From positions 1 to 24,203 of IMG/VR virus record IMGVR_UViG_3300032242_000510: a stretch of 24,203 bases of DNA, one strand, 5' to 3'. Below, piece by piece: positions 6,728-24,203 of the stretch. Position numbers and translations under genes: made by a program. Origin of the DNA: a virus. How positions within the stretch are numbered: position 1 is the stretch's first letter; every line of letters begins with the position of its first letter. The notes beneath the pieces are model-generated. The model was not told the DNA's origin, ran no database searches, and worked only from the letters and a program-made list of their open reading frames with translations.

Positions 6728-6728
6728 A

Positions 6729-7256: not shown

Positions 7257-7257
7257 T

Positions 7258-8585: not shown

Positions 8586-8586
8586 T

Positions 8587-9423
8587 ATGCTAAGTCAATA
8601 CTTGATAAATTTTTTAAAAAGTAAAAGCTCGTCGTTGGTTAGTGCTCCTTCGGACATGCTACAGTTTAGTTGCCTTCAGTATGCAATTAATAATGAACAC
8701 TTTGATGAATATAGTAGTTTTGGTTGGATTAACTTTTTGTCCGAAGAAGAAAAAAATAATTCAATACCGAATGATCAAGAACAATTTAAATATTATATAA
8801 ATGACATAGGGTTTAGAGGCAAATACCCTAACACTAGCAATGAAGGGGTGTTGGCGTTTTTTGGATGTAGCATAGCCTTTGGACAAGGATTACCAGAACA
8901 CGAAATCTATGCAGACTTAGTTTCTAAACATTGTGATAAGCAATATCTAAATTTAGGAATTCCGGGAGCAGGATGTCATCGTATCGCATTAACACTTTCA
9001 GCCGCATCAAAGGTATGGAATATAAAAACAGCAATAATAAATTTGCCGCCGTTTACCCGATTTCATTATATTGATAAGACTAATCATCTACAATCAATTT
9101 TACTATCTCACAAAGTAGAACAACCTGAAATAGAATCAATAAGGATTGATATAGTAAAAGACTTCAGTGATCAATTTTTATTATCACAAGCTGTTGATTC
9201 AATACAGTGGATGATGGATATTGCCAAATCAAAAAATATTAATTTAATTCTAGCATCTTGGGACGAAGATACTATCCAACTAGTTAAGACAGCATTTAAT
9301 ATTGATATACTTAAATTTAATATTGTTGATAGAGCTAGAGATGGACACCCGGGAGTATTATCGCATAATGCATTTGCTAATGATATAATTAATATCCTAG
9401 CAAGTGGAACATATACTTGCTAG
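8587..9423 (+). CDS. SGNH/GDSL-family hydrolase-like protein
   Basis: The 278-residue protein has the SGNH block I as FFGCSIAFGQG (nucleophile S95, GCS for the usual GDS), a block II-like NLGIPGAG at 122-129, and block V as DGHPG (D252, H254). Together these give a full Ser-Asp-His triad. The 85-residue N-terminal extension, including LSEEE and YYINDIGFRG, is typical of SGNH proteins found near glycan-synthesis genes. Family members remove or transfer acyl groups on sugars, lipids or peptides. There is no signal peptide, so it should act in the cytoplasm. It ends the plus block and overlaps the convergent oxygenase gene by 35 bases. Confidence 0.82.
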   Translation: MLSQYLINFLKSKSSSLVSAPSDMLQFSCLQYAINNEHFDEYSSFGWINFLSEEEKNNSIPNDQEQFKYYINDIGFRGKYPNTSNEGVLAFFGCSIAFGQGLPEHEIYADLVSKHCDKQYLNLGIPGAGCHRIALTLSAASKVWNIKTAIINLPPFTRFHYIDKTNHLQSILLSHKVEQPEIESIRIDIVKDFSDQFLLSQAVDSIQWMMDIAKSKNINLILASWDEDTIQLVKTAFNIDILKFNIVDRARDGHPGVLSHNAFANDIINILASGTYTC

Positions 9424-9880
9424 CAAGACTACCGTTAATCCCATTGTGCCATTCTCTATAATCTTTCCAAACTAGTACAGCACCTTGTTCCATGCTGTAA
9501 TAATAGTTGTCACCCATTATGAATAATTGTCCTGCACTAGGCTTGCTCATAAACACAGAGAATCTTTTTATTTTACCCAGCTTTAAGTATTCTTCTTCGT
9601 TGTCGTCAATATCATAATGATGCCCAGTCATATACCCAGGTTCTACACAACTGATCCAACTACGCAACGGAGTTACAAAAAACTGTTCAGCTAGTTCCAG
9701 TTCGAGATCTTTAGTATCATAGTAGTTAGTCCACTTAACACTAGCTGTATTGAAGTTGTTGTCCTTCCATAGTTTTAATATTTCTGCGTACTCGGGGTTG
9801 TTCATGTTCCAACGTGCAGGGTCAATAGTAATATCTCTACCGTCTTTAAGATTGGCTATTACTGTATTCCAATCAATCAT
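9389..9880 (-). CDS. Fe(II)/2-oxoglutarate oxygenase-like protein
   Basis: With the start at ATG 9878-9880 the protein has 163 residues, and the start overlaps the upstream stop as ATGATTGA, the same 8-base arrangement used at several other junctions. An ATG nine codons further upstream is possible but less likely. The motif series is EPGYMTGHHYD (H88, D90), a beta-helix core with GQLFIMGDNYYYSMEQGAVLVW, then EWHNGI (H145) and a basic residue at K155. It is related in layout to the 6729 and 8061 genes but more divergent. It is co-transcribed with the kinase-like and B12-type radical SAM genes. Confidence 0.78.
   Translation of the reverse strand: MIDWNTVIANLKDGRDITIDPARWNMNNPEYAEILKLWKDNNFNTASVKWTNYYDTKDLELELAEQFFVTPLRSWISCVEPGYMTGHHYDIDDNEEEYLKLGKIKRFSVFMSKPSAGQLFIMGDNYYYSMEQGAVLVWKDYREWHNGINGSLASKYMFHLLGY
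9397..9423. terminator. Inverted repeat inside convergent gene overlap
   Basis: CTAGCAAGT at 9397-9405 and ACTTGCTAG at 9415-9423 form a perfect 9-base stem around a 9-base loop. The repeat codes for the ends of both convergent proteins, and its right arm contains the plus-strand stop TAG. No T-run follows on either strand. It may mark RNA ends in both directions. Confidence 0.45.
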
Positions 9881-10568
9881 TGTAAACTTCTTCAAATATT
9901 TCAGCAAATACAGTATTACCCCATGACCGTTCTTTTAAGTGTTTTGTAATTGTAATTTCAAAAAACTTCTTAAAGTCAATAAAGCCTTTTTCATCTGTTG
10001 ATTGATCAAAACGATAAGCACCATCCTTACCAATAATACCTTCTATTATTTTTCTTTCTATAAATCTTTCTTCATATGGAATAACAGCATAGTTGTCTAT
10101 AGTTTTTAACTGTCCGTCTTTTGCTACAAAGAAACAGTTTGGGTACAAAGACACCTTCCAGAAATTGTTTGCTTTAGTTGCGATAAAGAAATCCTTCATT
10201 TGTTCTTTCCAGTTAGGAACCTCTTCATCTAAGTTTCTTCCAGGTGTAAATAATACTTGTGATAAGGTTTCTTTATTCCATTCCATAAAGATTTTTCTAT
10301 TTGCAGTATCTATATCATATAATGCAGGTGTAGTTTTAAGATGCGATAATTGTTGTAGAAATTTAACATCTCTTTTAAAGAACCAGTCTACTAACTCTTC
10401 TGGTACTAGTATATCCTCATTCGGTCTATATGCTGGATCGATGCAGTAGTGCGCACACATTACTGTCTGCTCTGGATTAACTCTAGGTGTGTATAGTAGA
10501 TTAGAAGGGTATGGTGTTCCTGTAGGATTTAGTTTATGATAGTAATCCCATGTACTAGTGTCTGTCAT
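9873..10568 (-). CDS. Degenerate protein-kinase-fold-like protein (paralogue of the 3918-4598 gene)
   Basis: The start is set at ATG 10566-10568 (231 residues), sharing its A with the upstream TAA, a TAATG coupling seen elsewhere in the window; an ATG four codons earlier is the alternative. The 138-160 block (K-V-S-L-Y-P-N-C-F-F-V, then DGQLKTIDNYA) resembles a small-molecule-kinase catalytic loop in which N144 could match the metal-binding Asn and D158 the DFG Asp, while the catalytic Asp of HxD is absent. It is thus less degenerate than its paralogue. Both paralogues are followed by a small enzyme gene, here an oxygenase and in the other case a GNAT-like gene. ATP binding is not shown. Confidence 0.6.
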   Translation of the reverse strand: MTDTSTWDYYHKLNPTGTPYPSNLLYTPRVNPEQTVMCAHYCIDPAYRPNEDILVPEELVDWFFKRDVKFLQQLSHLKTTPALYDIDTANRKIFMEWNKETLSQVLFTPGRNLDEEVPNWKEQMKDFFIATKANNFWKVSLYPNCFFVAKDGQLKTIDNYAVIPYEERFIERKIIEGIIGKDGAYRFDQSTDEKGFIDFKKFFEITITKHLKERSWGNTVFAEIFEEVYND

Positions 10569-12109
10569 TATGCCGTCCAATTTAATTTTTTATCGATGTA
10601 TGATTGAACTTGATCCTTAAACTTTTGATCACTAGTGTCTACATCAGATACTTTACGATTATATATTTCTTCATAGCTAGTTGTTTCATAGAAAGCGAAT
10701 AGCCTATCAGACAAGAATGGGTTACAGCCCCTAAGGCCTTGAAATCCTATATCACTATAAAATTCCTGCACAAGAGACTGTGCCTGGTACCAATCCATTG
10801 TATTGTGTTTCCAAATAACAATATCATTTCTAGTACTACCTACGCCTCCGCCTCTTGGAGTAGTAGATTTAAATACAACATTTCCCTTGCTATCTCTAGA
10901 AACTTCATATCCAGGATTGGGCCTAGCTTCTAGTTTGATCAATCCGTTACTAACAAGTTCTTTGGTAAATCGGCTCTGATTTGTAAGTGATTCGTCATAG
11001 TCGGGAACTTCTAATATATGTGCGCTGGCGCTTTGTCGTAGCCAGTTAGTATTAAGCCAATCTAGTGATTCATGCCAAGACTCTGTTGTCTCACCTGGTA
11101 TACCACATATCATCTGTATATTTGCTCTATAACGCTGAGGAGCATGAATATCCGTATATGTTTGAAACTCAAGTAAACCTTGCTGTAGTTTATCAGGATC
11201 CATTCCTTTGCGAACAAGTTTACCTGCAGTATGATTAAATGTTTCAATACCCATACTGTGTCCAAGGAACCCTAGTCTAATATAAGTGTCCCAGTGCTCA
11301 CGATGCTTAACAACTAAGTCGCCACGAGCGAATCCACATATCCAAGGATTGTATCCTAATTCATCTACTGCATCTGCGTACTTTTGTAGTTTCTCAGGAC
11401 GATCATTAAATGTTTCATCCATTACACGCCAGTTCTTAATACCCCACTTTTCGTAGCCTAGTTGTAATTGCTTCTTAAATTCTTCTTTACTTACGCTAAC
11501 ATCTTTCGATTGCCCTAACAGCGGAAAGTTACAGTAGGAGCAATTAAACATACATCCACGTGCTGTTTCAATCTGTGGGCATTCCCAAGACATCATAAAA
11601 TCGCGATCTTCGTAATCGACTAAGTAACTGTCTAAAGGAGTTGACGGGTAGTGATATAGTCCACGGATAACATTCTTGACACCGAAATAATTAGGGTCAC
11701 GCATTAAGGGTGCGCCCAAGGTTCCGGTAAGATGACGACATAAAGCTAGTACAGCGTTTTCACCATAACTATCTACCCAATAGTCTACATGATTAGCAGG
11801 GGTGGTTAAGGCATTATTTCCCCCTACTACTATAGCAACTTTAGGATACTCTTCTTTGAGCCACTTAGTAAATTCATTAAGATACGGACTCCATGGATTT
11901 AAGAACGCTGTTCCAAAGCAAAACATAACAGTTTTGTTAGTTGTCCTGCTACGCACAAACTCTTGTAGTTCCTCTAGTTGCCAAAATGCAGTAAAGTCCA
12001 CAACTTCTGCGTCCCAATCATTCATTCGTAGAAATGTAGCAACACGATGCGTCCACAAGATGCGTTCCCAACGTTTACCTGTTAGACTAAAAAATAGTGC
12101 GTGGTTCAT
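10568..12109 (-). CDS. B12-binding-type radical SAM enzyme
   Basis: The 513-residue protein has a Rossmann-like N-terminal domain (about 1-135) with VVGGNNALTTPANHVDYWVDSYGENAV at 94-120, characteristic of cobalamin-dependent radical SAM proteins. The cluster motif follows at 186-193 (CMFNCSYC), then HSMGIETFN and MICGIPGETTESW, which are typical of the class. The cobalamin-ligand DxHxxG motif is not obvious, so B12 may be bound base-off without a protein ligand, or not bound. Family members methylate unreactive carbon or phosphorus or rearrange rings. It overlaps the upstream oxygenase gene by 4 bases (ATGA) and the downstream kinase-like gene by one, so the four minus genes form one operon. 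Confidence 0.88.
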   Translation of the reverse strand: MNHALFFSLTGKRWERILWTHRVATFLRMNDWDAEVVDFTAFWQLEELQEFVRSRTTNKTVMFCFGTAFLNPWSPYLNEFTKWLKEEYPKVAIVVGGNNALTTPANHVDYWVDSYGENAVLALCRHLTGTLGAPLMRDPNYFGVKNVIRGLYHYPSTPLDSYLVDYEDRDFMMSWECPQIETARGCMFNCSYCNFPLLGQSKDVSVSKEEFKKQLQLGYEKWGIKNWRVMDETFNDRPEKLQKYADAVDELGYNPWICGFARGDLVVKHREHWDTYIRLGFLGHSMGIETFNHTAGKLVRKGMDPDKLQQGLLEFQTYTDIHAPQRYRANIQMICGIPGETTESWHESLDWLNTNWLRQSASAHILEVPDYDESLTNQSRFTKELVSNGLIKLEARPNPGYEVSRDSKGNVVFKSTTPRGGGVGSTRNDIVIWKHNTMDWYQAQSLVQEFYSDIGFQGLRGCNPFLSDRLFAFYETTSYEEIYNRKVSDVDTSDQKFKDQVQSYIDKKLNWTA

Positions 12110-12771
12110 ACCAATTGAAACTCGCTGGGCAGTATATGTTTTAGTGAATCTATCTTGTCTTGTTCTATACTAAATTTTACAAAAGTAGATGCATGGCTAA
12201 ATTTATCTATGTATCCTGCTTTGTTAGCTTCGTTAAGCCAAGGGCTGACCGTGTTATCAAATATGTGTCTGGCATGATCTGCGTTTGTCATAGTAGTAGT
12301 CACAGCTATTTCAACAGGACTAACTAATTTATTCTTTTTCAATAACTTTCTAACGACTAACTGTATTCTAGCACGACGTCCAAAATTAGCGGCTGTGTGT
12401 AAGAAGCTGGCATCCATATCATACCATATACCATCTTGTTCTAGCGGATACATTATGTCTCTTACTAAATCGATTAGATAACAGTTCTCGCCTAGTATAT
12501 TCAAATGGTATCTATCATCTATATCGGCATGTCTTTGATAGCATTGGTTAGGGTCCAAAATAATAATTCTTGCTTCACCTTTGATAACAGGCAATGAGTT
12601 ATAAAGTGTTTCCCAAATAGTTCCTTTGTACTCATTCTTTAGTATCCAAGGATCATAAAAGAAATCACCAGTCGGTTCATTAATAGTTGTTTTCATGCCG
12701 GCTTCGGGTAAATGGTGACATACTTCTTGAAATAATTTTGGATCAACTGTATAATTGGTAGATGTTAACAT
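12106..12771 (-). CDS. Asp/Asn beta-hydroxylase-like Fe/2OG oxygenase
   Basis: This 221-residue protein shows the beta-hydroxylase pattern at 66-140: EARIIILDPNQCYQRHAD gives H81 and D83, FLHTAANFGRRARIQLVV gives H125 with R132/R135 as candidate 2-oxoglutarate contacts. About 75 residues follow the core and have no recognisable motif. It is the first gene of a minus-strand operon and its stop overlaps the next start (ATGA). The only upstream signal is CATAAATA four bases before the ATG, with no clear Shine-Dalgarno sequence, so the message may be leaderless. Confidence 0.8.
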   Translation of the reverse strand: MLTSTNYTVDPKLFQEVCHHLPEAGMKTTINEPTGDFFYDPWILKNEYKGTIWETLYNSLPVIKGEARIIILDPNQCYQRHADIDDRYHLNILGENCYLIDLVRDIMYPLEQDGIWYDMDASFLHTAANFGRRARIQLVVRKLLKKNKLVSPVEIAVTTTMTNADHARHIFDNTVSPWLNEANKAGYIDKFSHASTFVKFSIEQDKIDSLKHILPSEFQLV

Positions 12772-12809
12772 GAAATATTTATGTGCTACTATTATAGTGT
12801 AAATAAAAG
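12772..12809. promoter_or_regulatory. Compact divergent promoter region with mirrored TAAATA boxes
   Basis: Only 38 bases separate two divergent ATGs. Reading outward each way, TAAATA ends exactly four bases before the ATG: CATAAATA on the minus strand (12783 to 12776) and TGTAAATA on the plus strand (12798-12805). Near the centre is the perfect inverted repeat ACTAT-T-ATAGT at 12788-12798. This near-symmetry suggests one site serving both operons. Identity as T4-type late promoters is inference. Confidence 0.45.
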
Positions 12810-13655
12810 ATGAAGATTAAGATAGCTCCAGATTACGATCCAACATATTTAGAAATAGATAGGCCACAGCCACTAGTAGATAGTAATATAGAAAGTATGA
12901 TACAGGATGTGTTATCTGGTAAACTAGATAAGGATATTACTGATAAGGTTTATACTAATTTTAAAAGCGAAATGACTTCTTGGCTATTGCAGTCCAAATT
13001 GAATACCGTTAGAGGTCTAGACAATTTTGATCGTGTAGATATTATTAATGGGTGTACACAGTTTATTGATACTGTTTATATGAATGGTACAGTACAGGTA
13101 CTAGCAGGCGATTATAGATATCATGCTAGACTAGGCAATTGGTATACACACCCTGGGTTCCTTAGTAAAGAAAAGCAGTTAATCATTGCGTGGCCGTTTC
13201 CTAGTACAGGAGATACACACCCGCAGATGAAGGAGATATTAGATGAAGCGCAAGACAAAGGAATTAGTGTACATGTGGATGGTGCTTGGCTTACTTGCTG
13301 TCGCGGAATCGATTTTGATTTATCACATCCATCTATTAAGTCAGTCGCTATCAGTTTAAGTAAAGGACTAGGACTAGGTTGGAACCGTGTAGGACTCCGT
13401 TGGACTAAAGATACAACCGAAGACGCTGTCACTATTATGAATGATTTTAATATGAATCTACGAGCACCTGCAATGATCGGATTGCACTTCCTTCGTAACT
13501 TGCCTGCTGACTACTTGTGGAATACACAAGGAGACAACTACTATAAGGTATGCAAAGATTTTGACTTGACTCCCACTAATGCAATTTATCTTGCTCTTAA
13601 GAATGGGCAACCTGTAGGAGTAAGTCCCTTACTAAGGTATTTAGAAAATGCCTAG
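12810..13655 (+). CDS. Short PLP-dependent fold-type I (aminotransferase-like) protein
   Basis: The 281-residue protein has the fold-type I landmarks: an internal beta strand with VHVDGAW (D157, the usual contact to the pyridine nitrogen), SLSKGLGLGWNRVG with K185 as the Schiff-base lysine and R193 as a likely phosphate contact. PFPSTGDTHPQMKEIL at 129-144 fits the region before the PLP aspartate. Full-length aminotransferases have around 400 residues, and here most of the C-terminal small domain is missing. The protein may be a compact decarboxylase/lyase-like form or a partner-dependent enzyme. Its stop overlaps the next ATG by 8 bases (ATGCCTAG), tying it to the SGNH genes. Confidence 0.75.
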   Translation: MKIKIAPDYDPTYLEIDRPQPLVDSNIESMIQDVLSGKLDKDITDKVYTNFKSEMTSWLLQSKLNTVRGLDNFDRVDIINGCTQFIDTVYMNGTVQVLAGDYRYHARLGNWYTHPGFLSKEKQLIIAWPFPSTGDTHPQMKEILDEAQDKGISVHVDGAWLTCCRGIDFDLSHPSIKSVAISLSKGLGLGWNRVGLRWTKDTTEDAVTIMNDFNMNLRAPAMIGLHFLRNLPADYLWNTQGDNYYKVCKDFDLTPTNAIYLALKNGQPVGVSPLLRYLENA

Positions 13656-14319
13656 GCTAATAGCATTTGGGTGTTCATTGACATACGGGCACGGGTTGCC
13701 TGATTGTTACATTCCTCCTACAGAGCCTGGGCCAAATCCTAGTAAACTAGCATGGCCCTCAATACTTGCTAATTGTTTAGGCAGAGAATGTATTAACATC
13801 TCTAGTCCGGGTGCAAGTAACAAAAAGATATGGAATGATATCATACATTTTGATTATCAACAAACTGATATAGTTTTTGTATTATGGAGTTACATAGCAC
13901 GAACTAGTATTATTCATAGTAGTAAAAAAATTACATTTATGGGTCCGTGGACTGAACATACTAATTATTACAAAGAATTTTATGACAAACATGATGCAAC
14001 ATTGATGTCTAGCTTATTTGTTAATCATGCTAATATGTTTTTAGATAGTAAAAAAATTACTGTGCATAATATTATAATAGGCAAAAGAGAACTACCCGTA
14101 CTTAACTTAAATAAGGTTATTACAAATCACATTCCTGTCTATATCAATGATATCCGCGAGAACTATCCAACGGCATTAGATAATATACATCCAGGACTTG
14201 AATGTCAAACTACGTATAGTAAACAAATTTTAGATTTTTTAAATATAAAAAATGAGTTACCTGTAGTTAAAAAACTGAGTATACTAGATAAAATAAAAAG
14301 ACATATGAAACAACGATGA
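13648..14319 (+). CDS. SGNH/GDSL-family hydrolase-like protein
   Basis: The 223-residue protein starts with block I FGCSLTYGHGLPD (nucleophile S10), has SSPGASNKKIW at 52-62 as block II/III, and DNIHPG (D178, H181) as block V. It is close in its first 45 residues to the next gene (FTYGHGLEDCW and WP in that copy), so the two are tandem paralogues. The substrate is probably an acyl or O-acetyl ester, but transferase activity is also known in the family. It lacks a signal peptide. A 24-base gap separates it from the next gene. Confidence 0.85.
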   Translation: MPRLIAFGCSLTYGHGLPDCYIPPTEPGPNPSKLAWPSILANCLGRECINISSPGASNKKIWNDIIHFDYQQTDIVFVLWSYIARTSIIHSSKKITFMGPWTEHTNYYKEFYDKHDATLMSSLFVNHANMFLDSKKITVHNIIIGKRELPVLNLNKVITNHIPVYINDIRENYPTALDNIHPGLECQTTYSKQILDFLNIKNELPVVKKLSILDKIKRHMKQR

Positions 14320-14343
14320 GAACATTTAAGGAATAGGTGCTGT

Positions 14344-14973
14344 ATGAAAAGATTAATAACATTTGGTGATAGTTTTACTTACGGACATGGTTTAGAAGAT
14401 TGTTGGATTGCAGACAAAGAATATCCCGGTCCAACTCCTAGTAAGTTTGCATGGCCCCAACATTTAGGTGATATGTTGGAACTCGAGGTAGTTAATAAGT
14501 CAAAATGCGGCTGGAGTAACATTCAAATATTAAAAGACATTATAAATTTTAATCTAGAGCCAACTGATATGATTATTGTAGGCTGGACTTACAGTTTACG
14601 AGATTGCATTTTTAGCAAAAATATATTTGGTGTTGAATCAGAAATGCGATTTAGCATCTGGCATAAGAATACTAAATTTATTAAAAAATATTTTGATATT
14701 CATAATAAACACGACCAAGCTGTTAGGATGGGATTATACATGCACCATGCAGAATCTTATCTAAAAACAAAAGGTGTTAAACAGCATCATTTTTGTGCGT
14801 ATCACGGATGGTACGAAGTAATGCCACATTTTACCCAACCCCTTGAAAATTTTATTCCCGACGAGATTGTGCAACATAAATTAGACATTGCATTAGATAA
14901 CAGTCATCCTGGTCCGATAGCACATCGACAAGCGGCTGAACGATTATATAAGATACTAAATGACTCAAAGTAA
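14344..14973 (+). CDS. SGNH/GDSL-family hydrolase-like protein
   Basis: The 209-residue protein keeps the textbook GDS block (FGDSFTYGHG, S10), NKSKCGWSN at 51-59 and DNSHPGP (D185, H188). It is a tandem paralogue of the preceding gene and a more distant relative of the SGNH protein ending at 9423. AAGGA lies roughly a dozen bases upstream of the ATG, further than ideal. The next gene starts inside its last codons with a 14-base overlap, so it is translationally coupled to the twitch-type radical SAM enzyme. A paired role, such as trimming an acyl group before or after radical chemistry, is inference. Confidence 0.85.
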   Translation: MKRLITFGDSFTYGHGLEDCWIADKEYPGPTPSKFAWPQHLGDMLELEVVNKSKCGWSNIQILKDIINFNLEPTDMIIVGWTYSLRDCIFSKNIFGVESEMRFSIWHKNTKFIKKYFDIHNKHDQAVRMGLYMHHAESYLKTKGVKQHHFCAYHGWYEVMPHFTQPLENFIPDEIVQHKLDIALDNSHPGPIAHRQAAERLYKILNDSK

Positions 14974-16219
14974 AACATTTTGTCTGCATCCATTTACAGG
15001 ACTAGCTACTAGAGAAGACGGTGCTATATGTGCCTGTTGTCGTAGTCATCCTGTTGGTTTTATACAACAGCAGTCTCTAGAAGAAATTTGGAACAACGAC
15101 ACTATGAAACGCATACGTAAGTCAGTGCTTACTAACATACGTCCTCCAGAATGCGAGCCGTGCTTTAGTTTAGAGGATCAAGGTGTCGAATCCTTACGTA
15201 AACGTCATATAAGCGGTGCAATTCCCGAAGCTAGGGTTAACTTATACCCTAATGCCTTAGACGCTTTAAACGAAGATTATACAATGCCATTTGAAATACC
15301 TACAATGGAACTAAAATTAAACAATTTGTGTAATCTTAAGTGTCGCATGTGCCACCCAATGGACTCAACAAGTTGGAATGACTGGAGTGTAGTAAAAAAG
15401 TATTATAAAGAAGAAAACAATATCATGTATGCGATTGTCGAAAAACATGATTTGGAAAACAAGCCGCATTTGGATAAGTTTCAAGACAGCCCAGAATGGT
15501 GGGCTAGTTTGGAAAAGTTGCTTCCGTACTTTAGACGTGTAGAGTTTGCAGGAGGCGAGCCCCTAATGGATCCGCAACACTATCGTATATTAGACATGCT
15601 TGCTCCATATGGACATCAGATTGAAATTAAGTACGCCACTAATCTAAGCATGCTAGGTAAGAGTAATCGTACGGTATGGCAATACTGGCCTAAGTTTAAG
15701 AGCGTTGCTGTAAATGTAAGTATAGACGGTATCGGTAATAGTTATGAATACATACGTGGTAATGCATCTTGGTCAGAACTTGTTAATAATATACGTCAAA
15801 TACAGTCAATATCTAACATTAGTCGTATCGTAGGTGCCTGTACTGTACAGGTTAGTAATGTACTAATCTTAGACAAGATGTGTGAATTCTTTTTAGACAA
15901 ATTAGGTATTGTATTCCATACTCATCGCGTAGCATATCCTAAAGTATTATCAGCACAAGTCTTGCCTAAGCCATTAAAGGCCCTGGCTATTATGCGTCTA
16001 GAGGCCCTTAAGGATCGTGTTCCTAATTTTAAACTAGTTAAAGAACATCCAGAATTATTAAAGTATACACTGGGTCAAATACAAGATAATATAAACTATA
16101 TTAACTCTGTGGATCAAAGCGAGCTATGGGAAGACTGTGTAGGATTCAATCATGCATTAGACGCTACTCGTAATCAAAGTTTTATAGATGTTACTCCGGA
16201 GTTCAAAGACTATGTTTGA
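14960..16219 (+). CDS. Twitch-type radical SAM enzyme with N-terminal Cys-rich domain
   Basis: The 419-residue protein begins with a Cys-rich segment like a displaced SPASM/twitch domain (FCLHPF with C8, then CACC at 24-27, then C65-x2-C68) which could hold an auxiliary iron-sulfur cluster. The radical SAM motif CNLKCRMC follows (C124, C128, C131), then GGEP at 198-201 and SIDG. The unusual order, auxiliary cysteines first and barrel second, is shared with the minus-strand gene at 19044-20462. Members of this group occur in phage and marine genomes with unknown substrates. It overlaps the next gene by 8 bases (ATGTTTGA). Confidence 0.87.
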   Translation: MTQSKTFCLHPFTGLATREDGAICACCRSHPVGFIQQQSLEEIWNNDTMKRIRKSVLTNIRPPECEPCFSLEDQGVESLRKRHISGAIPEARVNLYPNALDALNEDYTMPFEIPTMELKLNNLCNLKCRMCHPMDSTSWNDWSVVKKYYKEENNIMYAIVEKHDLENKPHLDKFQDSPEWWASLEKLLPYFRRVEFAGGEPLMDPQHYRILDMLAPYGHQIEIKYATNLSMLGKSNRTVWQYWPKFKSVAVNVSIDGIGNSYEYIRGNASWSELVNNIRQIQSISNISRIVGACTVQVSNVLILDKMCEFFLDKLGIVFHTHRVAYPKVLSAQVLPKPLKALAIMRLEALKDRVPNFKLVKEHPELLKYTLGQIQDNINYINSVDQSELWEDCVGFNHALDATRNQSFIDVTPEFKDYV

Positions 16220-17141
16220 TTCTACCACTATTAAAAATATGTTTTATAATTCTGTTGGGTGCAACACTGCTGAAATTATATTAGAATCAAACAATCAACT
16301 TTTATCGATATTTTATCATTTAAATGACAATCCAGTACAACATATATGGCAAGACATACATAGTGATAGTAAAAAATTTAATATGGGAATAACTCCTGGA
16401 ACTAGCTTAGATGAATTAGTAAACAAGATGAATCTATTACTAACAAAAACTAATCGCCCATTACTAGATTTACCAATATCACAGAATCAATTAAATTCAT
16501 TACATAACAGTTTTGTAGAAAATTCTAAAGAAATATTAACCGACGATGAGCTCAAAATTAATGCACTAATACATGCTATTGAATCTAAAAATAATGTGTT
16601 AACTGATTATGATGCTACTACAAAATTTTATAAAGATCCCGATATTAGAATTCCGATAAAGGAAGAATACAAACTTTGGCTTACTAATGAAAACGATTGG
16701 GGTCATTTACTGCTAGGGTTTGCTACACTAGGTAAATCTTGGAAAGACATAGTAAAAACCAACGATAACTTACAAGATCTAAATACACAAAAGGATATCA
16801 CCTCAGAAACTATTATGATGTTTAATGCAGATTATCCGTATCGTAAAGCTTCTGAACAGCTACTATATAAATGGGCTAAGTCATCTAACTATCAAGTTCC
16901 GTTGGATAATCTAAATCAATTAGCACTAGGGTCGTACTTTTTAGGAGAAGTAATTATCACTGAGGTATTTTTAAATTTTCATCCTATAGTAAGCGATTGG
17001 TATGTTCCAAATCATAAATGTAAATTATTATGGAATAAAAATGTGCTTGGGTATAAGGCACAAGTAAAACAAATTAATTTTTTTAACAGTGATATGTATT
17101 TTAAAACGCTATTAGATCATACAGGATTTCAAAATGTTTAA
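16212..17141 (+). CDS. Unrecognised protein between two radical SAM genes
   Basis: I start it at ATG 16212, which overlaps the previous stop by 8 bases as at other junctions, giving 309 residues; an ATG eight codons upstream is possible. I recognise no family. The sequence is Asn-, Leu- and Lys-rich, probably mainly helical, with few cysteines (one near residue 17 and one near the end), so it is not itself a cluster enzyme. There are no membrane segments or signal peptide. It is locked by 8-base overlaps to radical SAM genes on both sides, which makes it a good candidate for a partner, scaffold or substrate-binding protein of one of them. Confidence 0.75.
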   Translation: MFDSTTIKNMFYNSVGCNTAEIILESNNQLLSIFYHLNDNPVQHIWQDIHSDSKKFNMGITPGTSLDELVNKMNLLLTKTNRPLLDLPISQNQLNSLHNSFVENSKEILTDDELKINALIHAIESKNNVLTDYDATTKFYKDPDIRIPIKEEYKLWLTNENDWGHLLLGFATLGKSWKDIVKTNDNLQDLNTQKDITSETIMMFNADYPYRKASEQLLYKWAKSSNYQVPLDNLNQLALGSYFLGEVIITEVFLNFHPIVSDWYVPNHKCKLLWNKNVLGYKAQVKQINFFNSDMYFKTLLDHTGFQNV

Positions 17142-18030
17142 AGTTGCTAGCCGATACCCAACTCACACGGGTACTATTAAAATTGAATGGAATTTAGGTA
17201 AACGTTGCAACTTCGACTGTAGCTATTGCCCTAGTAGTATACATGACAACTCTAGTCCCCACACTAACATAGAAAAGTTAAAGTCATGTGTTGACAAACT
17301 TGTTACACTAGGCAAACCTATACGTCTTAGTTTTACAGGTGGTGAACCAACAGTACATCCTAAGTTTAAAGAGCTTGTTACATATTGTAAGCATGTGGGA
17401 ATTACATGGATTAGTGTAACAACTAATGGCACACTTCCGCACGAGTTCTATTCCAGCCTACCTGTGGATCAATTTGTGTTTAGTGTACACATGGAATACG
17501 ATGTTAGGCGTGTACTAGACACTATTGTTAATACCAAAGAACTATTCAGCGGAAAGGTATTGGTACATGTAATGGCACATCAGGATCATATGAAGCGTAC
17601 TAGATATATTGCAGAAGCATTAAGAGCAAGTAATGTACCTCATGCTGTTCGTAGAGTTCGTTGGACACAAGGCGATCATGACTTATTCGACGACATGCGT
17701 TATAATGCAGAAGACCTAGCTTGGGTTAAAGAGTACGAAGCAACAGTAGAAGCAAACTGTGTTATAGATGACGATGGCAACCAAATGTATCATGCTAATG
17801 ATATAATTAAATTGCACATGAACAAATACAAAGACTGGTCATGCAACGCAGGTATAGAAAGCCTAATGATAAATTGGGACGGTGATGTACACAGAGCGAC
17901 TTGTAGAGTCGGTGGTAGTCTTGGCAACATATATGAAGGAAGCTTCGTTGCCCCTAGCGAACCCGTAACTTGTGACCGTAATTTCTGTACCTGCGCCGCT
18001 GATATACCGTTAACTAAGTTTAAACTTTGA
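17134..18030 (+). CDS. Radical SAM enzyme with C-terminal Cys-rich domain
   Basis: The 298-residue protein has CNFDCSYC (C25, C29, C32), GGEP at 69-72 and TTNG. Its C-terminal part opens with WSCNAG (C237) and continues with C257, C280, C285 and C287, enough ligands for one auxiliary cluster. The same W-S/T-C-x-x-G arrangement is found in the genes at 18010-19047 and 23078-24037, so the three form a subfamily. Motif reading suggests a SPASM/twitch-like module of unusual type. It begins in the previous stop (ATGTTTAA) and ends tail to tail with, and 21 bases inside, the next minus gene. Confidence 0.87.
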   Translation: MFKVASRYPTHTGTIKIEWNLGKRCNFDCSYCPSSIHDNSSPHTNIEKLKSCVDKLVTLGKPIRLSFTGGEPTVHPKFKELVTYCKHVGITWISVTTNGTLPHEFYSSLPVDQFVFSVHMEYDVRRVLDTIVNTKELFSGKVLVHVMAHQDHMKRTRYIAEALRASNVPHAVRRVRWTQGDHDLFDDMRYNAEDLAWVKEYEATVEANCVIDDDGNQMYHANDIIKLHMNKYKDWSCNAGIESLMINWDGDVHRATCRVGGSLGNIYEGSFVAPSEPVTCDRNFCTCAADIPLTKFKL

Positions 18031-19047
18031 TTGGTGTGTTTCGCAACTACATAAGCAATTCTTAATAGAGCAGATACTGGATTTGAATTCGGGATCGAAC
18101 TTTTCTACAAAGTCTTCATCTAGAATATTAAACGAATAATCTAGCCCGTAAATAGTTTGTTGGCACGATCCCTGTATTTCACCTGTCCAACTAATATAAA
18201 CATTGTCTAAACCTATATCGCAACTCCACCCTTCAAAGTTAGTCCAATTGTTATTGATATAAGTATTAGACTTTGCTCGCACAGTCTTGCCATCGTCGAG
18301 TGTTGCTACACTTTCGTACAGGCGCATTTGTCCTTCAAATATTAGTTTTCTGTTTTTCCAGATCCAAAGAAGATTAGGTATACGTTTTAAAGGGTTTTTC
18401 AAGAAACGTTTTTGTTCAGATGTTATCTGTATATCATCGGCATTGACAACTTTGATGTTACCAATTTTAGAAACTTCAGGTTCGATAACTTCACAAGTTA
18501 TAATAAACCAATTGTGCTTGCTGTTCTTTTTCATATAGTCAATAACATCTAATCCTTCTTGCCAGTGCTTGCGATCCATTAGGACTTTTACAGTTACCTT
18601 CTTTTTGTATTCGAACAAGGTGTCTGCTACAGCAATCATGTGATCCGGATCAGCTTGCGATATATGATATGACAAATGAGCATTATCAATCAAGTGTCCG
18701 TATTCTTTCCACCAACGTAGAGTTCTTGACCCATTGCTGATTAAACTTAGATAGATATCATTTTCTTTTTTAATAGCCTCAATAAACAGTGCAAGGTCTC
18801 TCCATAAAGTAGGCTCTCCGCCTGCTAGGCTAAGATGTATTTTAGTTTTACCTAGCTTCTGCTTGTACATTTCTATAAAATGATTAAAGTTTTTAATTAT
18901 AAGATCTAAATTTTTAGGAGAAGGATAGTTGCCGGCATTGCTATCTGGCCAACAATATTCACATTTGTAATTACAAACATTATTGGGATTCCATCTTATT
19001 GCTAAGATGTTAGGCTTTTGCGTTGATATAATTTTAATAGGTATCAT
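18010..19047 (-). CDS. Radical SAM enzyme with C-terminal Cys-rich domain
   Basis: The 345-residue protein has CNYKCEYC (C25, C29, C32), GGEP at 76-79 and ISNG. The C-terminal module starts at W274-S-C276 and includes C295, C326, C331, C333 and C335, matching the layout of the convergent 17134 gene. It carries an insertion of about 50 residues relative to that gene, rich in Lys and Arg, near 200-255. It is the last gene of the long minus operon, and its ATG overlaps the preceding stop by 4 bases. Substrate unknown; the subfamily resemblance is firm, the chemistry is not. Confidence 0.87.
   Translation of the reverse strand: MIPIKIISTQKPNILAIRWNPNNVCNYKCEYCWPDSNAGNYPSPKNLDLIIKNFNHFIEMYKQKLGKTKIHLSLAGGEPTLWRDLALFIEAIKKENDIYLSLISNGSRTLRWWKEYGHLIDNAHLSYHISQADPDHMIAVADTLFEYKKKVTVKVLMDRKHWQEGLDVIDYMKKNSKHNWFIITCEVIEPEVSKIGNIKVVNADDIQITSEQKRFLKNPLKRIPNLLWIWKNRKLIFEGQMRLYESVATLDDGKTVRAKSNTYINNNWTNFEGWSCDIGLDNVYISWTGEIQGSCQQTIYGLDYSFNILDEDFVEKFDPEFKSSICSIKNCLCSCETHQSKFKLS
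18016..18027. repeat. 12-base perfect palindrome in a convergent overlap
   Basis: AAGTTTAAACTT lies within the 21-base overlap of two convergent radical SAM genes and encodes the K-F-K-L tail of both proteins. With no loop it would be a poor RNA hairpin, so DNA-level recognition is as likely as termination. Confidence 0.6.
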
Positions 19048-20462
19048 AGCAGGTGTGCCAACTCTGGGAACGTTGTTTTAAAATCTGTGTTACGTTGACG
19101 ATCCATTGTTGTAATGTAATCTTTAAAATCTGTTAGCAAGTTAGTGTGATCCTCTTTGTCCATCCAGTCTAAGATGCCTTCCCAACGCTTCCAGCCATAT
19201 GGATTAGTTTCCCAGAACTCTTTGTCCTGTGTATAATTCTTCCATAGCCATTCTTGTAGGGCAACAAACAGTTCACGTACTTCAAGTTTATCTTCTTTGG
19301 GCAATACACGTAGGCTTAACCATGTAGGAATCCAAAGTAAGTGTACACCTACTAGCCCTCCGCCCATAGTTTGTCCTGCGGCATTCTTATCAAAGTTAAC
19401 TTTCTTAAAGTTCATACGTACTTTCCATTTGATAAAATCTGGAACGTGTTTGATGTTTAAGATTTGTACAGCCATAGCAATGTTAGTTTGTATGTTGTCT
19501 GGAGCATTGTCTAATTTAATTAGATTCTCCTCTACAGTTTTCCAATCTAACGGATAGCGTATGTATTCACCACGTGGGCCAATACCGTCTAGGCTAACAC
19601 CTACTTTAACTTTACGGAATTGACTCCATATCTCAATAATCTCATCATTAACTAAGATACCGTTAGTGTTGTAGCGAAGGCTAATTTGTCCAGCATAACC
19701 ACGTTTGATAATTTCTAAAAGCAATGTCTTATGTTCCTTAATCAACAATGGCTCACCACCGGCAAAGTAAAGTTGTTTAATGTTAGGAATTTGATCGTAG
19801 ACTTCTTCCCAGAATGCAGGGTTCTCATGCCACTTGTTGTTAAAGTCGTCGGCTTCCCAACTCATTTGTTTCTTAATTAGTGGGCTAGTGAATATAGGAA
19901 ATACTTTCTTATGTTCCGGTACCCACATACTTGAATCGTGCGGGCTACACATAATACATTTTAAATTACAAGTATGTCCTAGACGTAAGTCTAAGTACTG
20001 TAACTTGTAAGGTACTGAGCCGTCCAGTTCTGTTTCAGCAATTAGTTCCTTAATATCAATCTTTTCATTTAAGTACCAAGTGCCAGTTTCCCAGATACGT
20101 TTGCTAGCAATACCTTCTGCTTCTTCTTCATAACATTTAACACAACTGGCTGGCACTTCGCCAGCTAACATAGTTTTACGTACCGACTTCATATAGTCGT
20201 TATTAAATGCTTGAGTGGGCAAGTCTTTACTAAAGTTAGCAGGTTGGCCATCTTCCATCTTAACAAGCCCTACGGTATAGTCACCTGTGTCTGCACCTGA
20301 TGCATTTGCTACACAACATATACGCATGTCGCCATTAGGGCGTGTTGCAAGATGTATCCAGGGCAATACACAGAAACTAGGACTACCGGATACTTCCGTA
20401 ATCTGTCGTTGCCAGTCACCTAGTTGTGTGTTTTCAGGTTGTAACCAAAATACTTTATTCAT
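19044..20462 (-). CDS. Twitch-type radical SAM enzyme with N-terminal Cys-rich domain
   Basis: The 472-residue protein is a paralogue of the plus-strand gene at 14960-16219. It has an N-terminal Cys set (C31 in FCVLPW, CC at 49-50, C107-x2-C110), then the radical SAM motif CNLKCIMC (C165, C169, C172), GGEP at 235-238 and SLDGIG. The N-terminal set could ligate an auxiliary cluster, as in SPASM proteins, but sits before the barrel. Its C-terminal third contains a WxxxW-rich helix region without known motifs. It overlaps the upstream gene by 8 bases (ATGAATAA) and the downstream gene by 4. Confidence 0.88.
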   Translation of the reverse strand: MNKVFWLQPENTQLGDWQRQITEVSGSPSFCVLPWIHLATRPNGDMRICCVANASGADTGDYTVGLVKMEDGQPANFSKDLPTQAFNNDYMKSVRKTMLAGEVPASCVKCYEEEAEGIASKRIWETGTWYLNEKIDIKELIAETELDGSVPYKLQYLDLRLGHTCNLKCIMCSPHDSSMWVPEHKKVFPIFTSPLIKKQMSWEADDFNNKWHENPAFWEEVYDQIPNIKQLYFAGGEPLLIKEHKTLLLEIIKRGYAGQISLRYNTNGILVNDEIIEIWSQFRKVKVGVSLDGIGPRGEYIRYPLDWKTVEENLIKLDNAPDNIQTNIAMAVQILNIKHVPDFIKWKVRMNFKKVNFDKNAAGQTMGGGLVGVHLLWIPTWLSLRVLPKEDKLEVRELFVALQEWLWKNYTQDKEFWETNPYGWKRWEGILDWMDKEDHTNLLTDFKDYITTMDRQRNTDFKTTFPELAHLL

Positions 20463-21528
20463 TAATCTTTTGCTCTGTTATGCTGATAAAAGGACTTTGA
20501 GGCCCGCACATGATAATACATGTTGAACTAGATTTGTCCTTCCATTTTTGTTGCCACATTGTTTGCCACACATCAGTTTCGATGATTTGGCGTAATCCAG
20601 ACTTTAACACATTTAATTTTGGAAATCCTAACACCTGTTGGCGAACCTTTTCCCCTTCCTCTATAATTGAATCTTCTTGAAACAAATTATATGATTTTAG
20701 CAAATCTACGTCATAGTTTGTATAAAGGAACGCACTAATCATACAGCAAGGACTTAGTTGGTAGTGTGCATCGATATATAATTCTTTATCATTGATAGCC
20801 ATGCAATTTATTTTATCTGCATTAGGCCAATTTTGATGTCCTACTATGTCCGACTTACTTACAAATTTAACTTCGCTATCTAATGGTTGTTCAAGATTAT
20901 ACAAAAACTTACCAGCGTTATCAACAACTGGAAATGGGCGAGCATGACGTCTACTATTTTTTACATTAAATTGTTGAAATCCTAATTCATTAGCTACTGC
21001 CTCTGCGGCACTAACCTGATGCTCATTATGTTTAAATCTAATAAACATCCACTCTGCTACACCACCTGCATCGATAAACGTTTTAGCATTTTTTAAAATT
21101 AAATTATAGTTAGTTCCAACACGATACAGACTATGTGTATCTTCTAACCCATCAAGCGCAAACACTACAATATGATCATTAGGCAACGCTTGATATAATT
21201 TTTTCCACCATTCTGTAGATCTTAAACTACCGTTAGTATGTATTTCTAGTCTAATATCAGGAGCACTAGTTTTAATGTATTCGCACATTTCAATAAGGTT
21301 GTTATTCATCAATGGATCACCGAAGTTTCCGCAAAAGTTGATTCTCTCAAGTTGTTCTAATATATCTACTGGAAATATTGTTATAAAGTCATCTAAGGTC
21401 CATTCATTTGTAGTCAGCAACGGATTATCAATACCGCCGTGAATATTTCGAGGGCACATAGGACAGGACGCTTGACATCGATTAGAAATTTCTATGTGAA
21501 CACGTTTGAGTTCGTTAAATTTAAACAT
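20455..21528 (-). CDS. SPASM-type radical SAM enzyme (paralogue of the 22110-23090 gene)
   Basis: The 357-residue protein has CQASCPMCPR (C18, C22, C25), GNFGDP at 67-72 instead of GGEP, and a C-terminal SPASM-like part with C242, the LSPCC pair at 261-262 and a late C337-x3-C341. It shares FKHNEHQV, LYRV and HTNGS with its paralogue one gene away, so both derive from one ancestor. SPASM enzymes commonly modify peptides or proteins, and some modify sugars or nucleotides, so substrate class is open. It overlaps both neighbours by 8 bases. Confidence 0.88.
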   Translation of the reverse strand: MFKFNELKRVHIEISNRCQASCPMCPRNIHGGIDNPLLTTNEWTLDDFITIFPVDILEQLERINFCGNFGDPLMNNNLIEMCEYIKTSAPDIRLEIHTNGSLRSTEWWKKLYQALPNDHIVVFALDGLEDTHSLYRVGTNYNLILKNAKTFIDAGGVAEWMFIRFKHNEHQVSAAEAVANELGFQQFNVKNSRRHARPFPVVDNAGKFLYNLEQPLDSEVKFVSKSDIVGHQNWPNADKINCMAINDKELYIDAHYQLSPCCMISAFLYTNYDVDLLKSYNLFQEDSIIEEGEKVRQQVLGFPKLNVLKSGLRQIIETDVWQTMWQQKWKDKSSSTCIIMCGPQSPFISITEQKINE

Positions 21529-22120
21529 TCTTCTTTCCTATAATCATCCAACGTGTGTACAAGGGTAAGACTAGTTCTCCTGCCCATAGTACGTTTATAT
21601 GGCTCTGCTCCACAAACTCGGCTAGGCTTTCTGCTGTACGTACATGTTCGTCTATTTTATAATTATTGCTTTGTAGGACTAGTAGTTGATCTTTATTCCT
21701 ATTCCGCAACCATTGTTCGTACTGAGCTTGTGTGATATGTTCGCAACTAGTATTGATAACAACATCAACAAACGAAATTAAACTGCACATGTCTGTAGTC
21801 ACAGCACTGAATCTACCATCTATCTCTTCTTGCTTGTTCATAAGAACAGCAATAGCTTCACATGATGGATCAATATCAATACTACAAATTTTCTTAACAG
21901 GTACATTACTCTGGAACAGCATACTGGCTAGTACACCAACCCAACCACCGTGTATTTCAATACTTAGTTGATCCCGATGTACGTGGTTATCTAAATTACT
22001 GATTAACCATTCTTTGCTTTTAAGTTGCCCAGACCAAAAGGCGTCCATGGTCCTCATTGGGTTTTCACTGTTGCGGATAGCCTGCATCCAATGATGTAGG
22101 TGTTCTGTATCAATTAACAA
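21521..22120 (-). CDS. Class I SAM methyltransferase-like protein, TTG start
   Basis: The 199-residue protein has a motif I-like segment SIEIHGGWVGVLASML (about 53-68), an acidic end of strand 2 (SIDIDPSC, D82/D84), an acid at 110 and a motif IV-like VVINTSCEHI at 120-129. This fits a small Rossmann methyltransferase, although the G-x-G-x-G loop is altered to HGGWVG. The first codon is TTG at 22118-22120; AGGAG at 22127-22131 lies six bases before it, and an in-frame TAG lies just upstream, so an ATG start is not available there. It is placed between two paralogous SPASM enzymes and overlaps them by 11 and 8 bases, suggesting work on the same substrate. Confidence 0.75.
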   Translation of the reverse strand: MLIDTEHLHHWMQAIRNSENPMRTMDAFWSGQLKSKEWLISNLDNHVHRDQLSIEIHGGWVGVLASMLFQSNVPVKKICSIDIDPSCEAIAVLMNKQEEIDGRFSAVTTDMCSLISFVDVVINTSCEHITQAQYEQWLRNRNKDQLLVLQSNNYKIDEHVRTAESLAEFVEQSHINVLWAGELVLPLYTRWMIIGKKNV

Positions 22121-23090
22121 ATTGTTCTCCTAGTTTATCAAACTTACCGCATTGGCGTGAACATTCTAGCAAAGGTTTGTGCGCCCAAGTATCTTCAATC
22201 TGTTGAAAATACCCCGACGAAAATATAGTTGCTAATGAATCTTTTTGTAGATTAGGAAACAGGCCGATAGCATCCATGTAGTCTACACGGCTTGCTTGAT
22301 TGGGTAACTGCCAACTAAAGTCTAGCCAACAGCAAGGACTTACTGTACCATCTGCGGCAATGTACATTTGTTTATGTTGTACAGCCTTACAATTAATCTT
22401 AGTAGAGTTTATATTATCTTTAACTTTACTAACCATTGCCTTGCTAGTTTCTGTAGGATACAGTATGTGTGTAGTGTGCCCTGTATCATCTAGTACATGA
22501 AGTTTATCTTCTACAAAACGTGAAGTATGCTTGGCTTGGAAATTTTTAAATTTCATATCTGTAGCCATAGCACGACATTCTTCTACTTGGTGTTCGTTGT
22601 GTTTGAATACTAGCATGTGCCATTCTGCTTCTCCTCCGGCTTCTATAAATGCCCATGCATTTTTTATAATCTTGTGCCAGTCGGTACTTACACGATATAG
22701 CTTGTGTGTATCTTCTAATCCGTCGATACCAAACGTAACTTTAACTTTATGGTTGGCTAATTCTTTCCACCAATCAATATTTCTAGCACTGCCGTTAGTA
22801 TGCATGGTCAGTTGCATATTAGGATTAGTTTCTCTTAAGTATTGAAATATTTCTAAACAATCTTCTGCAATAATAGGATCACCTAAGTTACCACACATAA
22901 ACAGTTTGTTGAGTTGCTGTATAAATTCTGGACTAAACCAAGATTTAAATGTTGCTAAGTTTATTTCTGTAGGATCAAACAGAGGATTCATAGGACCACC
23001 GTTGATACGCCGTGGGCACATAGGGCAACGTGCTTGGCATTTGCTAGTTAGTTCTAAATGGACATCTCTTATATCTTCTAGTTTATACAT
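22110..23090 (-). CDS. SPASM-type radical SAM enzyme (paralogue of the 20455-21528 gene)
   Basis: The 326-residue protein has CQARCPMCPR (C18, C22, C25), GNLGDP in place of GGEP, MHTNGS, FGIDGLEDTH, and a SPASM-like end with C234, SPCC at 253-254 and C310-x3-C314. The strand DGTVSPCC is the usual beginning of the SPASM core. Compared with its paralogue it is about 30 residues shorter in the C-terminal part. Its ATG lies inside the last codons of the upstream radical SAM gene (13-base overlap). Together with the methyltransferase it forms a three-gene set. Confidence 0.88.
   Translation of the reverse strand: MYKLEDIRDVHLELTSKCQARCPMCPRRINGGPMNPLFDPTEINLATFKSWFSPEFIQQLNKLFMCGNLGDPIIAEDCLEIFQYLRETNPNMQLTMHTNGSARNIDWWKELANHKVKVTFGIDGLEDTHKLYRVSTDWHKIIKNAWAFIEAGGEAEWHMLVFKHNEHQVEECRAMATDMKFKNFQAKHTSRFVEDKLHVLDDTGHTTHILYPTETSKAMVSKVKDNINSTKINCKAVQHKQMYIAADGTVSPCCWLDFSWQLPNQASRVDYMDAIGLFPNLQKDSLATIFSSGYFQQIEDTWAHKPLLECSRQCGKFDKLGEQFVN
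22127..22131 (-). promoter_or_regulatory. Shine-Dalgarno site that fixes a TTG start
   Basis: AGGAG on the minus strand, six bases before TTG 22118-22120, is among the strongest ribosome binding sites in the window. It lies within the last codons of the upstream radical SAM gene. Confidence 0.65.
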
Positions 23091-24037
23091 TTTGGTATCT
23101 TGCTATCCGCACTACTTACACACCTAGTAGTTACGCATTTTTGTGGTGCGGAAAACAAAGTAAATTTTTCTATCGTGCCTAGTGCTTCTTCGTGGCAACT
23201 ATAGGCACGTTTAACTTCCGTACCTTTTATTATAACACTCTGATAACCTGCATTACAAGTCCAATTGGCAAATTGATTAAACCCTAGTGCATTGAAACGT
23301 TCTGCTTGATCAATGAAATAGTTTTGATCGCCATCTGTTAAACGTATCTGAAATCCTTCCTGCTGTTCAAAATCGTTTTGCATTATAGCAATCATTTCAT
23401 CGGTATAGCCATCTACGATAGCAGTAGCAGAGTCGTTACTTTGCGGTTTGAGAGTTACGTTAATTCCGCGAGTCCTTAGTCGTTCACAGCGTTCTAGTGT
23501 TTCAAAAAACACGTCAGGAACCATTACTTGATTGACTGTTACATGAACACGGTCGTACATCAATTGCAAACACTTGTCCCCGAACTCTTGCTCCTTGGCA
23601 AACTCTGCATGAAAACTGGCTGTTATACTACGGCGTTGTAGTAATTCTGTATTAGTAGACCAACTTTTCCACCATTTAGAGCCTGGACTCAAATTAGTAG
23701 TCATGTGTATGCTTTGATAGCTACTTTCTGTTTCGTCTAAGTATTTGACTAGATCGGGCAGTTGTTTATATGCTGTAGGTTCGCCGCCACTAAAGCTCCA
23801 GTGAAATTCAGTAAATCCATTTTGGCGAGCTTGCCTTTTGATTTCGTCTATAGCACGAGTGTATACTTCAAATGGTTGGTAGTCCAACCTATCACTACGA
23901 GCATAGGGCCAACAATAGCTACATTTATAATTACAAAATCTACCCAATATCCAACTTACGTTAAATAAAGGACGGTCCAACATAGTTTGTTGTCCAAAAT
24001 GCGTTATATCTTTGAGAGGGATAGCGTTAAAGTTCAT
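23078..24037 (-). CDS. Radical SAM enzyme with C-terminal Cys-rich domain
   Basis: The 319-residue protein is first in the long minus operon. It has CNYKCSYC (C35, C39, C42), GGEP at 84-87 and TTN, and a C-terminal W259-T-C261-x-x-G with C281, C301, C306 and C317. The CWP after the cluster motif is shared with the 18010 gene. Its ATG is immediately preceded by TGTAAATA with a six-base spacer and no Shine-Dalgarno sequence, and the region also holds the -35 box of the divergent tRNA-like gene, which starts at the ATG itself. The gene boundaries are secure; the substrate is unknown. Confidence 0.87.
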   Translation of the reverse strand: MNFNAIPLKDITHFGQQTMLDRPLFNVSWILGRFCNYKCSYCWPYARSDRLDYQPFEVYTRAIDEIKRQARQNGFTEFHWSFSGGEPTAYKQLPDLVKYLDETESSYQSIHMTTNLSPGSKWWKSWSTNTELLQRRSITASFHAEFAKEQEFGDKCLQLMYDRVHVTVNQVMVPDVFFETLERCERLRTRGINVTLKPQSNDSATAIVDGYTDEMIAIMQNDFEQQEGFQIRLTDGDQNYFIDQAERFNALGFNQFANWTCNAGYQSVIIKGTEVKRAYSCHEEALGTIEKFTLFSAPQKCVTTRCVSSADSKIPKCIN

Positions 24038-24065
24038 TGACAGTATTTACAAATGATAGTATAAT
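24037..24065 (+). promoter_or_regulatory. Perfect consensus sigma-70-type promoter for the tRNA-like gene
   Basis: TTGACA at 24037-24042 and TATAAT at 24060-24065 are separated by exactly 17 bases. The expected start, six to seven bases after the -10 box, falls on G24072, the first base of the acceptor stem. The same stretch on the minus strand carries TGTAAATA (24051 to 24044) for the divergent gene. Confidence 0.85.
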
Positions 24066-24071
24066 ATACAT

Positions 24072-24167
24072 GTAGACGTGAGTGGAACATGGTATACCTC
24101 CAGCTTGCTGGGATAGGGCCTTGCCCTTAGGGTGGCTTTGTAGGTTCGAATCCTACCGTCTACACCA
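24072..24167 (+). tRNA. tRNA-like gene, long variable region, anticodon uncertain (possibly Ser-GCU)
   Basis: The 96-base element has a perfect 7-bp acceptor stem (GTAGACG 24072-24078 with CGTCTAC 24157-24163), discriminator A, encoded CCA at 24165-24167, and a perfect T arm (GTAGG-TTCGAAT-CCTAC, 24140-24156). The middle 61 bases fit a class II tRNA by length, with GG in a D-loop-like position and a strong variable hairpin. The anticodon arm is poor: placing T33 at 24106 gives GCU, but the flanking stem has two mismatches. CCAGC-TT-GCTGG (24100-24111) instead makes a tight local hairpin. It may be a degenerate tRNA, a tRNA with an unusual core, or a tRNA mimic. Confidence 0.6.
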
Positions 24168-24186
24168 TTTTACAACTTAGGCAAAG

Positions 24187-24203
24187 AAAGAGGCAAAAAT
24201 GAA
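24187..24203 (+). other. Probable ribosome binding site and start of a gene cut by the window edge
   Basis: AAAGAGG at 24187-24193 is followed five bases later by ATG at 24199-24201. Only the start is visible, so nothing can be said of the product. It would follow the tRNA-like gene by 31 bases on the same strand. Confidence 0.4.

Follow-up and report, generated by a model that had tools for sequence, protein, structure and literature searches.

What does a gene do when it has the ends of a transfer RNA (tRNA) and no recognizable anticodon? The question is raised by positions 24072 to 24167 of the virus record IMGVR_UViG_3300032242_000510 in IMG/VR; the stretch we analysed, here called the window, is that complete record of 24,203 nucleotides. 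The original prediction described flawless ends around two tight hairpins, and suggested a tRNA mimic or unusual tRNA whose ends are under selection. Here we report that the RNA belongs to a previously unlabelled family, of which IMG/VR contains at least 98 distinct members, found in big T4-like freshwater phages, and that comparison of these sequences makes its structural class, a tRNA-shaped RNA without an anticodon, near certain. We consider it fairly probable that the gene encodes a phage mimic of leucine tRNA (tRNALeu) that is charged by the leucyl-tRNA synthetase (LeuRS) of the host and acts in trans.

Structure of the RNA and its family

The RNA gene and its parts are arranged as follows.

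24072-24167, + strand: anticodon-less tRNALeu-like RNA of 96 nucleotides; 108 bits and E 2.8e-25 with model R1, the window being among the sequences from which that model was built
24072-24078, + strand: 5' strand of the acceptor stem, GTAGACG, partner of 24157-24163; double-sided changes at 6 of 7 pairs among relatives
24079-24099, + strand: D domain, TGAGTGGAACATGGTATACCT, with a Leu-type D loop (A14, A15, G18G19, A20a) and a weak D stem; no variation at the elbow residues among 35 independent sequences
24100-24111, + strand: hairpin CCAG-CUUG-CUGG replacing the anticodon arm; the stem covaries, with a tetraloop in 65 of 98 relatives and an anticodon loop in none
24115-24139, + strand: long variable arm, GGGCC-UU bulge-GCCC-UUA-GGGU-GGCUUU; the outer stem covaries and the inner stem is present in the folds of relatives
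24140-24156, + strand: T arm, GTAGG TTCGAAT CCTAC; 100% paired, with double changes at 2 of 5 pairs
24157-24163, + strand: 3' strand of the acceptor stem, CGTCTAC, partner of 24072-24078; covarying
24164-24167, + strand: discriminator A73 and encoded CCA; relatives have ACCA in 96 of 98 cases and ACCG in 2

The acceptor stem (GTAGACG/CGTCTAC), the T arm and A73 with CCA are all perfect in the window RNA, at exactly the coordinates first proposed, and the two hairpins lie at 24100-24111 and at about 24115-24139. Standard tRNA models find no clear anticodon. ARAGORN calls tRNA-Ser(GCT), with an "anticodon" that falls inside the CCAG-CUUG-CUGG hairpin, and the score with the Rfam tRNA model (RF00005), 28.3 bits, is under the gathering cut-off of 29. 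The amino-acid labels given by ARAGORN are artefacts, since the same RNA is labelled Pro, Gly, Ser or Arg in relatives. Minimum-free-energy folding of the window RNA alone is unremarkable (z = -0.88) and single-sequence folding is uninformative; support for the structure is comparative.

Relatives were collected by several routes. A gapped pattern returned 22 loci, all with an RNA of identical length, and a wide pattern returned at least 120 matches in IMG/VR; a loose scan for the promoter plus the D loop gave mostly random matches and contributed some diverged members. As an independent bait we used a small secreted protein with an HExRHC motif, encoded downstream of the RNA, which had 213 relatives; the best 80 were fetched and 54 were sampled for the RNA. 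In total, 98 distinct RNAs entered the analysis. Excluded from the statistics were two pattern matches spanning ordinary tRNA genes (L105 and L170) and one diverged sequence with no encoded CCA (L115). Across 84,980 species genomes of bacteria and archaea the wide pattern had zero matches, and within the collections searched the family is distributed in viruses only.

Among 72 relatives, 95.9% of cells pair at 23 chosen pairs, and double-sided changes occur at 14 pairs and in 184 cells, versus 49.6 cells in shuffles; controls with slid partners pair in at most 54% of cells. The independent set found through the protein pairs at 99.2% with the same controls, in an alignment that had been fitted to the model. 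Compensatory change is strong in the acceptor, T, "anticodon-position" and variable stems, and U8, A14, A15, G18G19, A20a, U48, T54 T55 C56, A58, A73 and CC are invariant in the 35 sequences of the independent set. A column-by-column test shows a weak D stem, with a constant A10-U28 followed by mismatched pairs. The variable arm is long, with a covarying outer stem and a 5' bulge that becomes an internal loop in the group associated with histone-like genes. Judged by these comparisons, the RNA is no chance fold.

At the anticodon position the family carries a variable hairpin of 14-35 nucleotides, the loop of which is mostly UUCG, CUUG or GNRA. Among the loops at this position in the 98 relatives, 65 are tetraloops, one has 7 nucleotides and none combines U33 with a purine at 37. 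The earlier view that no 5-base-pair anticodon stem with a 7-base loop and T33 fits thus holds across the family, and the retention of the gene in relatives, together with compensatory changes in its middle, bears out the idea of a mimic or unusual tRNA with selected ends. Having no anticodon, the RNA cannot decode.

The ARAGORN call and an Rfam tRNA score near threshold would be expected of an ordinary tRNA-Ser(GCT) or of a decaying tRNA pseudogene. This explanation is exceedingly improbable in view of the absence of an anticodon in 98 relatives, compensatory changes in all stems, A73 in place of the usual serine G73, and a strong promoter at a fixed position. Transfer-messenger RNA (tmRNA) has a tRNA-like domain that the phage RNA also resembles, in its tRNA upper half, its weak D stem and the hairpin that replaces the anticodon arm, raising the idea of a rescue RNA that works with SmpB and alanine. 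We rejected it as very improbable mainly because just 5 of the 72 relatives have G3:U70, the alanine determinant; moreover, a tag reading frame would not fit into about 100 nucleotides, and no tmRNA was called by ARAGORN. Separately, the compensated drift of the acceptor sequence makes primer roles in reverse transcription or replication look unlikely.

Promoter and downstream genes

The sequence in front of the RNA contains two promoter elements.

24037-24042, + strand: -35 box, TTGACA; jointly with the -10 box 12/12 to the sigma-70 consensus, with a spacer of 17, and conserved in position in 98 relatives
24060-24065, + strand: -10 box, TATAAT, 6 nucleotides 5' of RNA nucleotide 1; predicted transcription start at 24072

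The gap from the -10 box to nucleotide 1 is 6 nucleotides in 95 of the 98 relatives and 7 in the other 3, and nucleotide 1 is a purine in every one. From this fixed spacing, transcription is predicted to begin at the mature 5' end, without RNase P. The region beyond the RNA leads into a gene in the window as follows.

24184-24193, + strand: purine-rich AAAGAAAGAGG, 5' of the HExRHC-type ATG
24199-24203, + strand: HExRHC-type secreted protein, first codon ATG, truncated by the end of the record; the full gene is present in the nearest relatives (L007 and L024), in which the RNA is identical

Among the 22 loci returned by the gapped pattern, all those with a complete downstream gene encode the same small secreted protein there, with a signal peptide and the HExRHC motif. 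Family-wide, the gene downstream of the RNA encodes the HExRHC protein in 57 cases and a histone-like protein in 29, with others in the remainder.

This arrangement invites a second reading, in which the RNA is a cis-acting, tRNA-shaped 5' leader that shields the 5' end of the downstream messenger RNA (mRNA) or lets tRNA 3' processing cut the mRNA free, and in which loss of the anticodon only stops an abundant by-product from disturbing translation. The RNA comes first in the predicted transcript, the gene usually begins about 20-60 nucleotides further on, no terminator was found 3' of the window RNA, and the RNA lies immediately upstream of the HExRHC gene in 38 of the 54 sampled loci. The 16 others manage without the RNA, however, and the downstream gene is not constant; in 25 of the 29 histone-type cases a T4-late-like motif of the TATAAGTA type separates RNA and gene. 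Conservation of the elbow, A73, CCA and the leucine set described below is more than a 5' cap requires, and the relatives in cultured phages lie within tRNA clusters. We regard the leader as unlikely and, given the changing neighbours, favour an RNA that acts in trans, which these comparisons make likely.

Several features of these loci were observed in passing. The TATAAGTA motif sits within a small inverted repeat in L106, L118, L130 and other histone-type loci. At L131:5710-5806 and L286:2904-3000 the RNA precedes a tRNA-Ser-like gene by a few nucleotides, like the first member of a tRNA operon. In L042, upstream of 2124, the RNA is absent and a sigma-70-like promoter is very near the start codon; the HExRHC mRNA there may, from its sequence, be leaderless. 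The secreted protein (L024:3001-3330 and relatives) carries a C-terminal GHExRHCFQGxxH motif and has more than 200 relatives in IMG/VR; tblastn found no counterpart of it in cultured phages, it falls in no Pfam family, and no PDB fold matched it at E <= 0.001. Elsewhere in the window are ten radical-SAM genes (4630-24037), of which two encode an N-terminal zinc ribbon of the HMPTM type and two a SPASM domain, and a gene for an AMP-binding enzyme (1942-3390).

The RNA is present as a single strong match in each of 16 contigs of 65-400 kilobases. Most of these have 22-33 ordinary tRNA-model matches clustered elsewhere, and the RNA usually lies outside the cluster of 20-33 ordinary tRNA genes that belongs to its phage. 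A clear T4-type capsid gene, gp23, was found in 6 of the 16, with cultured jumbo phages such as Sinorhizobium phage Phosso nearest in sequence.

Leucine identity and proposed role

The determinants of E. coli LeuRS are A73, A15-U48, G18G19, A20a and the D-T loop contacts, and E. coli tRNALeu variants lacking both the anticodon arm and the variable arm remain active (PMC9976931). According to another passage of PMC9976931 the anticodon arm is required for LeuRS editing, and mischarging is for that reason possible, though disputed. The LeuRS set (A73, A14, A15-U48, G18G19, A20a and D-T loop contacts) is complete in 35 of 35 independently found RNAs. Elsewhere the same set is present in 29 of 32 phage tRNALeu, 2 of 30 serine and tyrosine tRNAs, and 29 of 272 non-Leu tRNAs overall. 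Freshwater Burkholderiales make up most of the metagenome-assembled genomes that carry the HExRHC gene, alongside one Methylopumilus and some Methylococcaceae, the binning of phage contigs being weak host evidence. Of 16 such bins, 12 contain a significant match to the model, and the six matches fetched were all tRNALeu(GAG), at 47-48 bits, sharing with the phage RNA the acceptor GACG/CGUC and the D loop. On balance, these likenesses suggest that leucylation of the RNA is likely.

Other observations weigh against a leucylated RNA acting in trans. Many D- and T-loop positions were preset in the wide pattern, so that their invariance is meaningful only in the protein-found set, which is free of RNA-pattern bias, yet was gathered with a bait protein itself taken from RNA-bearing loci. 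The tRNATyr of a phage cluster can equal tRNALeu in model score, and the weak D stem and extra nucleotide could impair charging. The Aat-type leucyl transferase family PF03588 is absent from 17 phages and the class I synthetase family PF00133 from 16. A gene follows the RNA closely at most loci, which makes a cis role possible.

In the mechanism that we favour, the sigma-70 RNA polymerase of the host would begin at the first base of the acceptor stem, leaving a 5' end that needs no RNase P, and ordinary tRNA 3' processing would release the 3' end from the downstream transcript. The upper half would fold like a class II leucine tRNA, with acceptor, T arm, D-T elbow, A15-U48 and A73-CCA, above a purely structural capping hairpin in the position of the anticodon arm. 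Host LeuRS, acting independently of the anticodon, would then charge the RNA with leucine. Because it cannot decode, the RNA would compete in trans for LeuRS, for EF-Tu or for a host enzyme directed at tRNA, or would alternatively donate leucyl groups away from the ribosome; in the decoy role it could jam or mislead LeuRS, EF-Tu or tRNA-targeting immunity.

As far as sequence evidence goes, the family, its structure, the absence of an anticodon, the promoter position, the leucine identity set and the single copy are established; from these we infer expression, leucylation, action in trans and a target. It is a tentative generalization, somewhat short of even odds, that large phages encode a dedicated class of tRNAs that lack an anticodon, carry leucine, do without RNase P and serve as decoys or amino-acid donors off the ribosome. 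If true, phages have retained a non-decoding tRNA as a tool in gene neighbourhoods that are unrelated to one another. The usual view of tRNA arrays in large phages is that they help with decoding, and a conserved member that cannot decode does something else.

Relatives in cultured phages and known systems

With blastn, neither the window RNA nor the histone-type RNA had a relative among 50,697 phages; Synechococcus phage S-SRM01 encodes a histone H1-like protein and gave no strong RNA match. Searching the genomes of cultured jumbo phages exposed a second RNA group, possibly of separate origin from the window family, whose members have in common a D loop of the Leu type, a bulged variable arm and a capped hairpin that replaces the anticodon arm. 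Compensatory acceptor, T and D pairs are found among the four distinct sequences compared. The RNA is unannotated in Serratia phage BF, the Erwinia pEa_SNUABM phages and Xanthomonas XbC2, and is annotated as "tRNA-Val" (110 nucleotides) in Pectobacterium CBB and as "tRNA-Arg" (109 nucleotides) in Erwinia Kaldavass. These RNAs are located inside tRNA clusters, and in Cronobacter GAP32 the slot is occupied by an ordinary tRNALeu, which points to a tRNALeu origin for the cultured-phage RNA. Such relatives make the RNA directly testable.

Other Leu-like RNAs were also noted. Vibrio phage 2.275.O (L264:1501-1635) has an unannotated, more diverged one of 135 nucleotides, in which a CCAGC-GCGAAA-GUUGG hairpin replaces the anticodon arm and the variable region is very long. 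Those at L371:7864-7950, L373:3642-3723 and L374:393-479 have long odd centres and no encoded CCA, and are possibly a third group or intron-bearing tRNAs.

The literature searched, in which most subscription papers fell outside coverage, contains no description of an anticodon-less phage tRNA. Four known systems offer comparison. The phage RNA shares with bacterial class II tRNALeu, especially GAG, A73, A14, A15-U48, G18G19, A20a, a long variable arm and part of the acceptor stem; it differs in lacking the anticodon arm and in its one extra nucleotide before the D region, weak D stem and longer, bulged variable arm. With the tRNA-like domain of tmRNA it shares a tRNA upper half and the absence of an anticodon, but it has no mRNA part or consistent G3:U70, and its determinants are those of leucine, not alanine. 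In the passages cited on Nanoarchaeum equitans, transcription of leaderless tRNAs begins at nucleotide 1 and RNase P is unnecessary (PMC10100707, PMC3491384), and the start predicted here is the same. That organism is an archaeon without RNase P, whose tRNAs decode, whereas the present case is a single phage RNA in bacteria, with a predicted start site.

The nearest known RNA to the family is T4 RNA C. RNAs C and D of T4 (species 1 and 2 RNA) are small stable RNAs of unknown function, encoded beside phage tRNA genes (PMC3014915, PMC9697503), and the likeness lies in that location and in the perfect T arm and possible 7-base-pair acceptor stem of RNA C. Its 3' 95 nucleotides (L375:1407-1501) can form an acceptor-like CGGAACG/CGUUUCG stem of 7 base pairs together with the perfect T arm, and may be a tRNA-like domain. 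RNA C differs in a 5' extension of about 46 nucleotides and in having no CCA encoded at that acceptor, and the T4 RNAs are reported to be late, whereas the promoter of the window RNA is sigma-70-like. With model R1, RNA C scores 15.1 bits (E 0.0045 in a 4-kilobase search), mostly from the T arm, and the relation is not significant. The family offers a concrete way into phage RNAs that have long gone unexplained, T4 RNA C and D among them.
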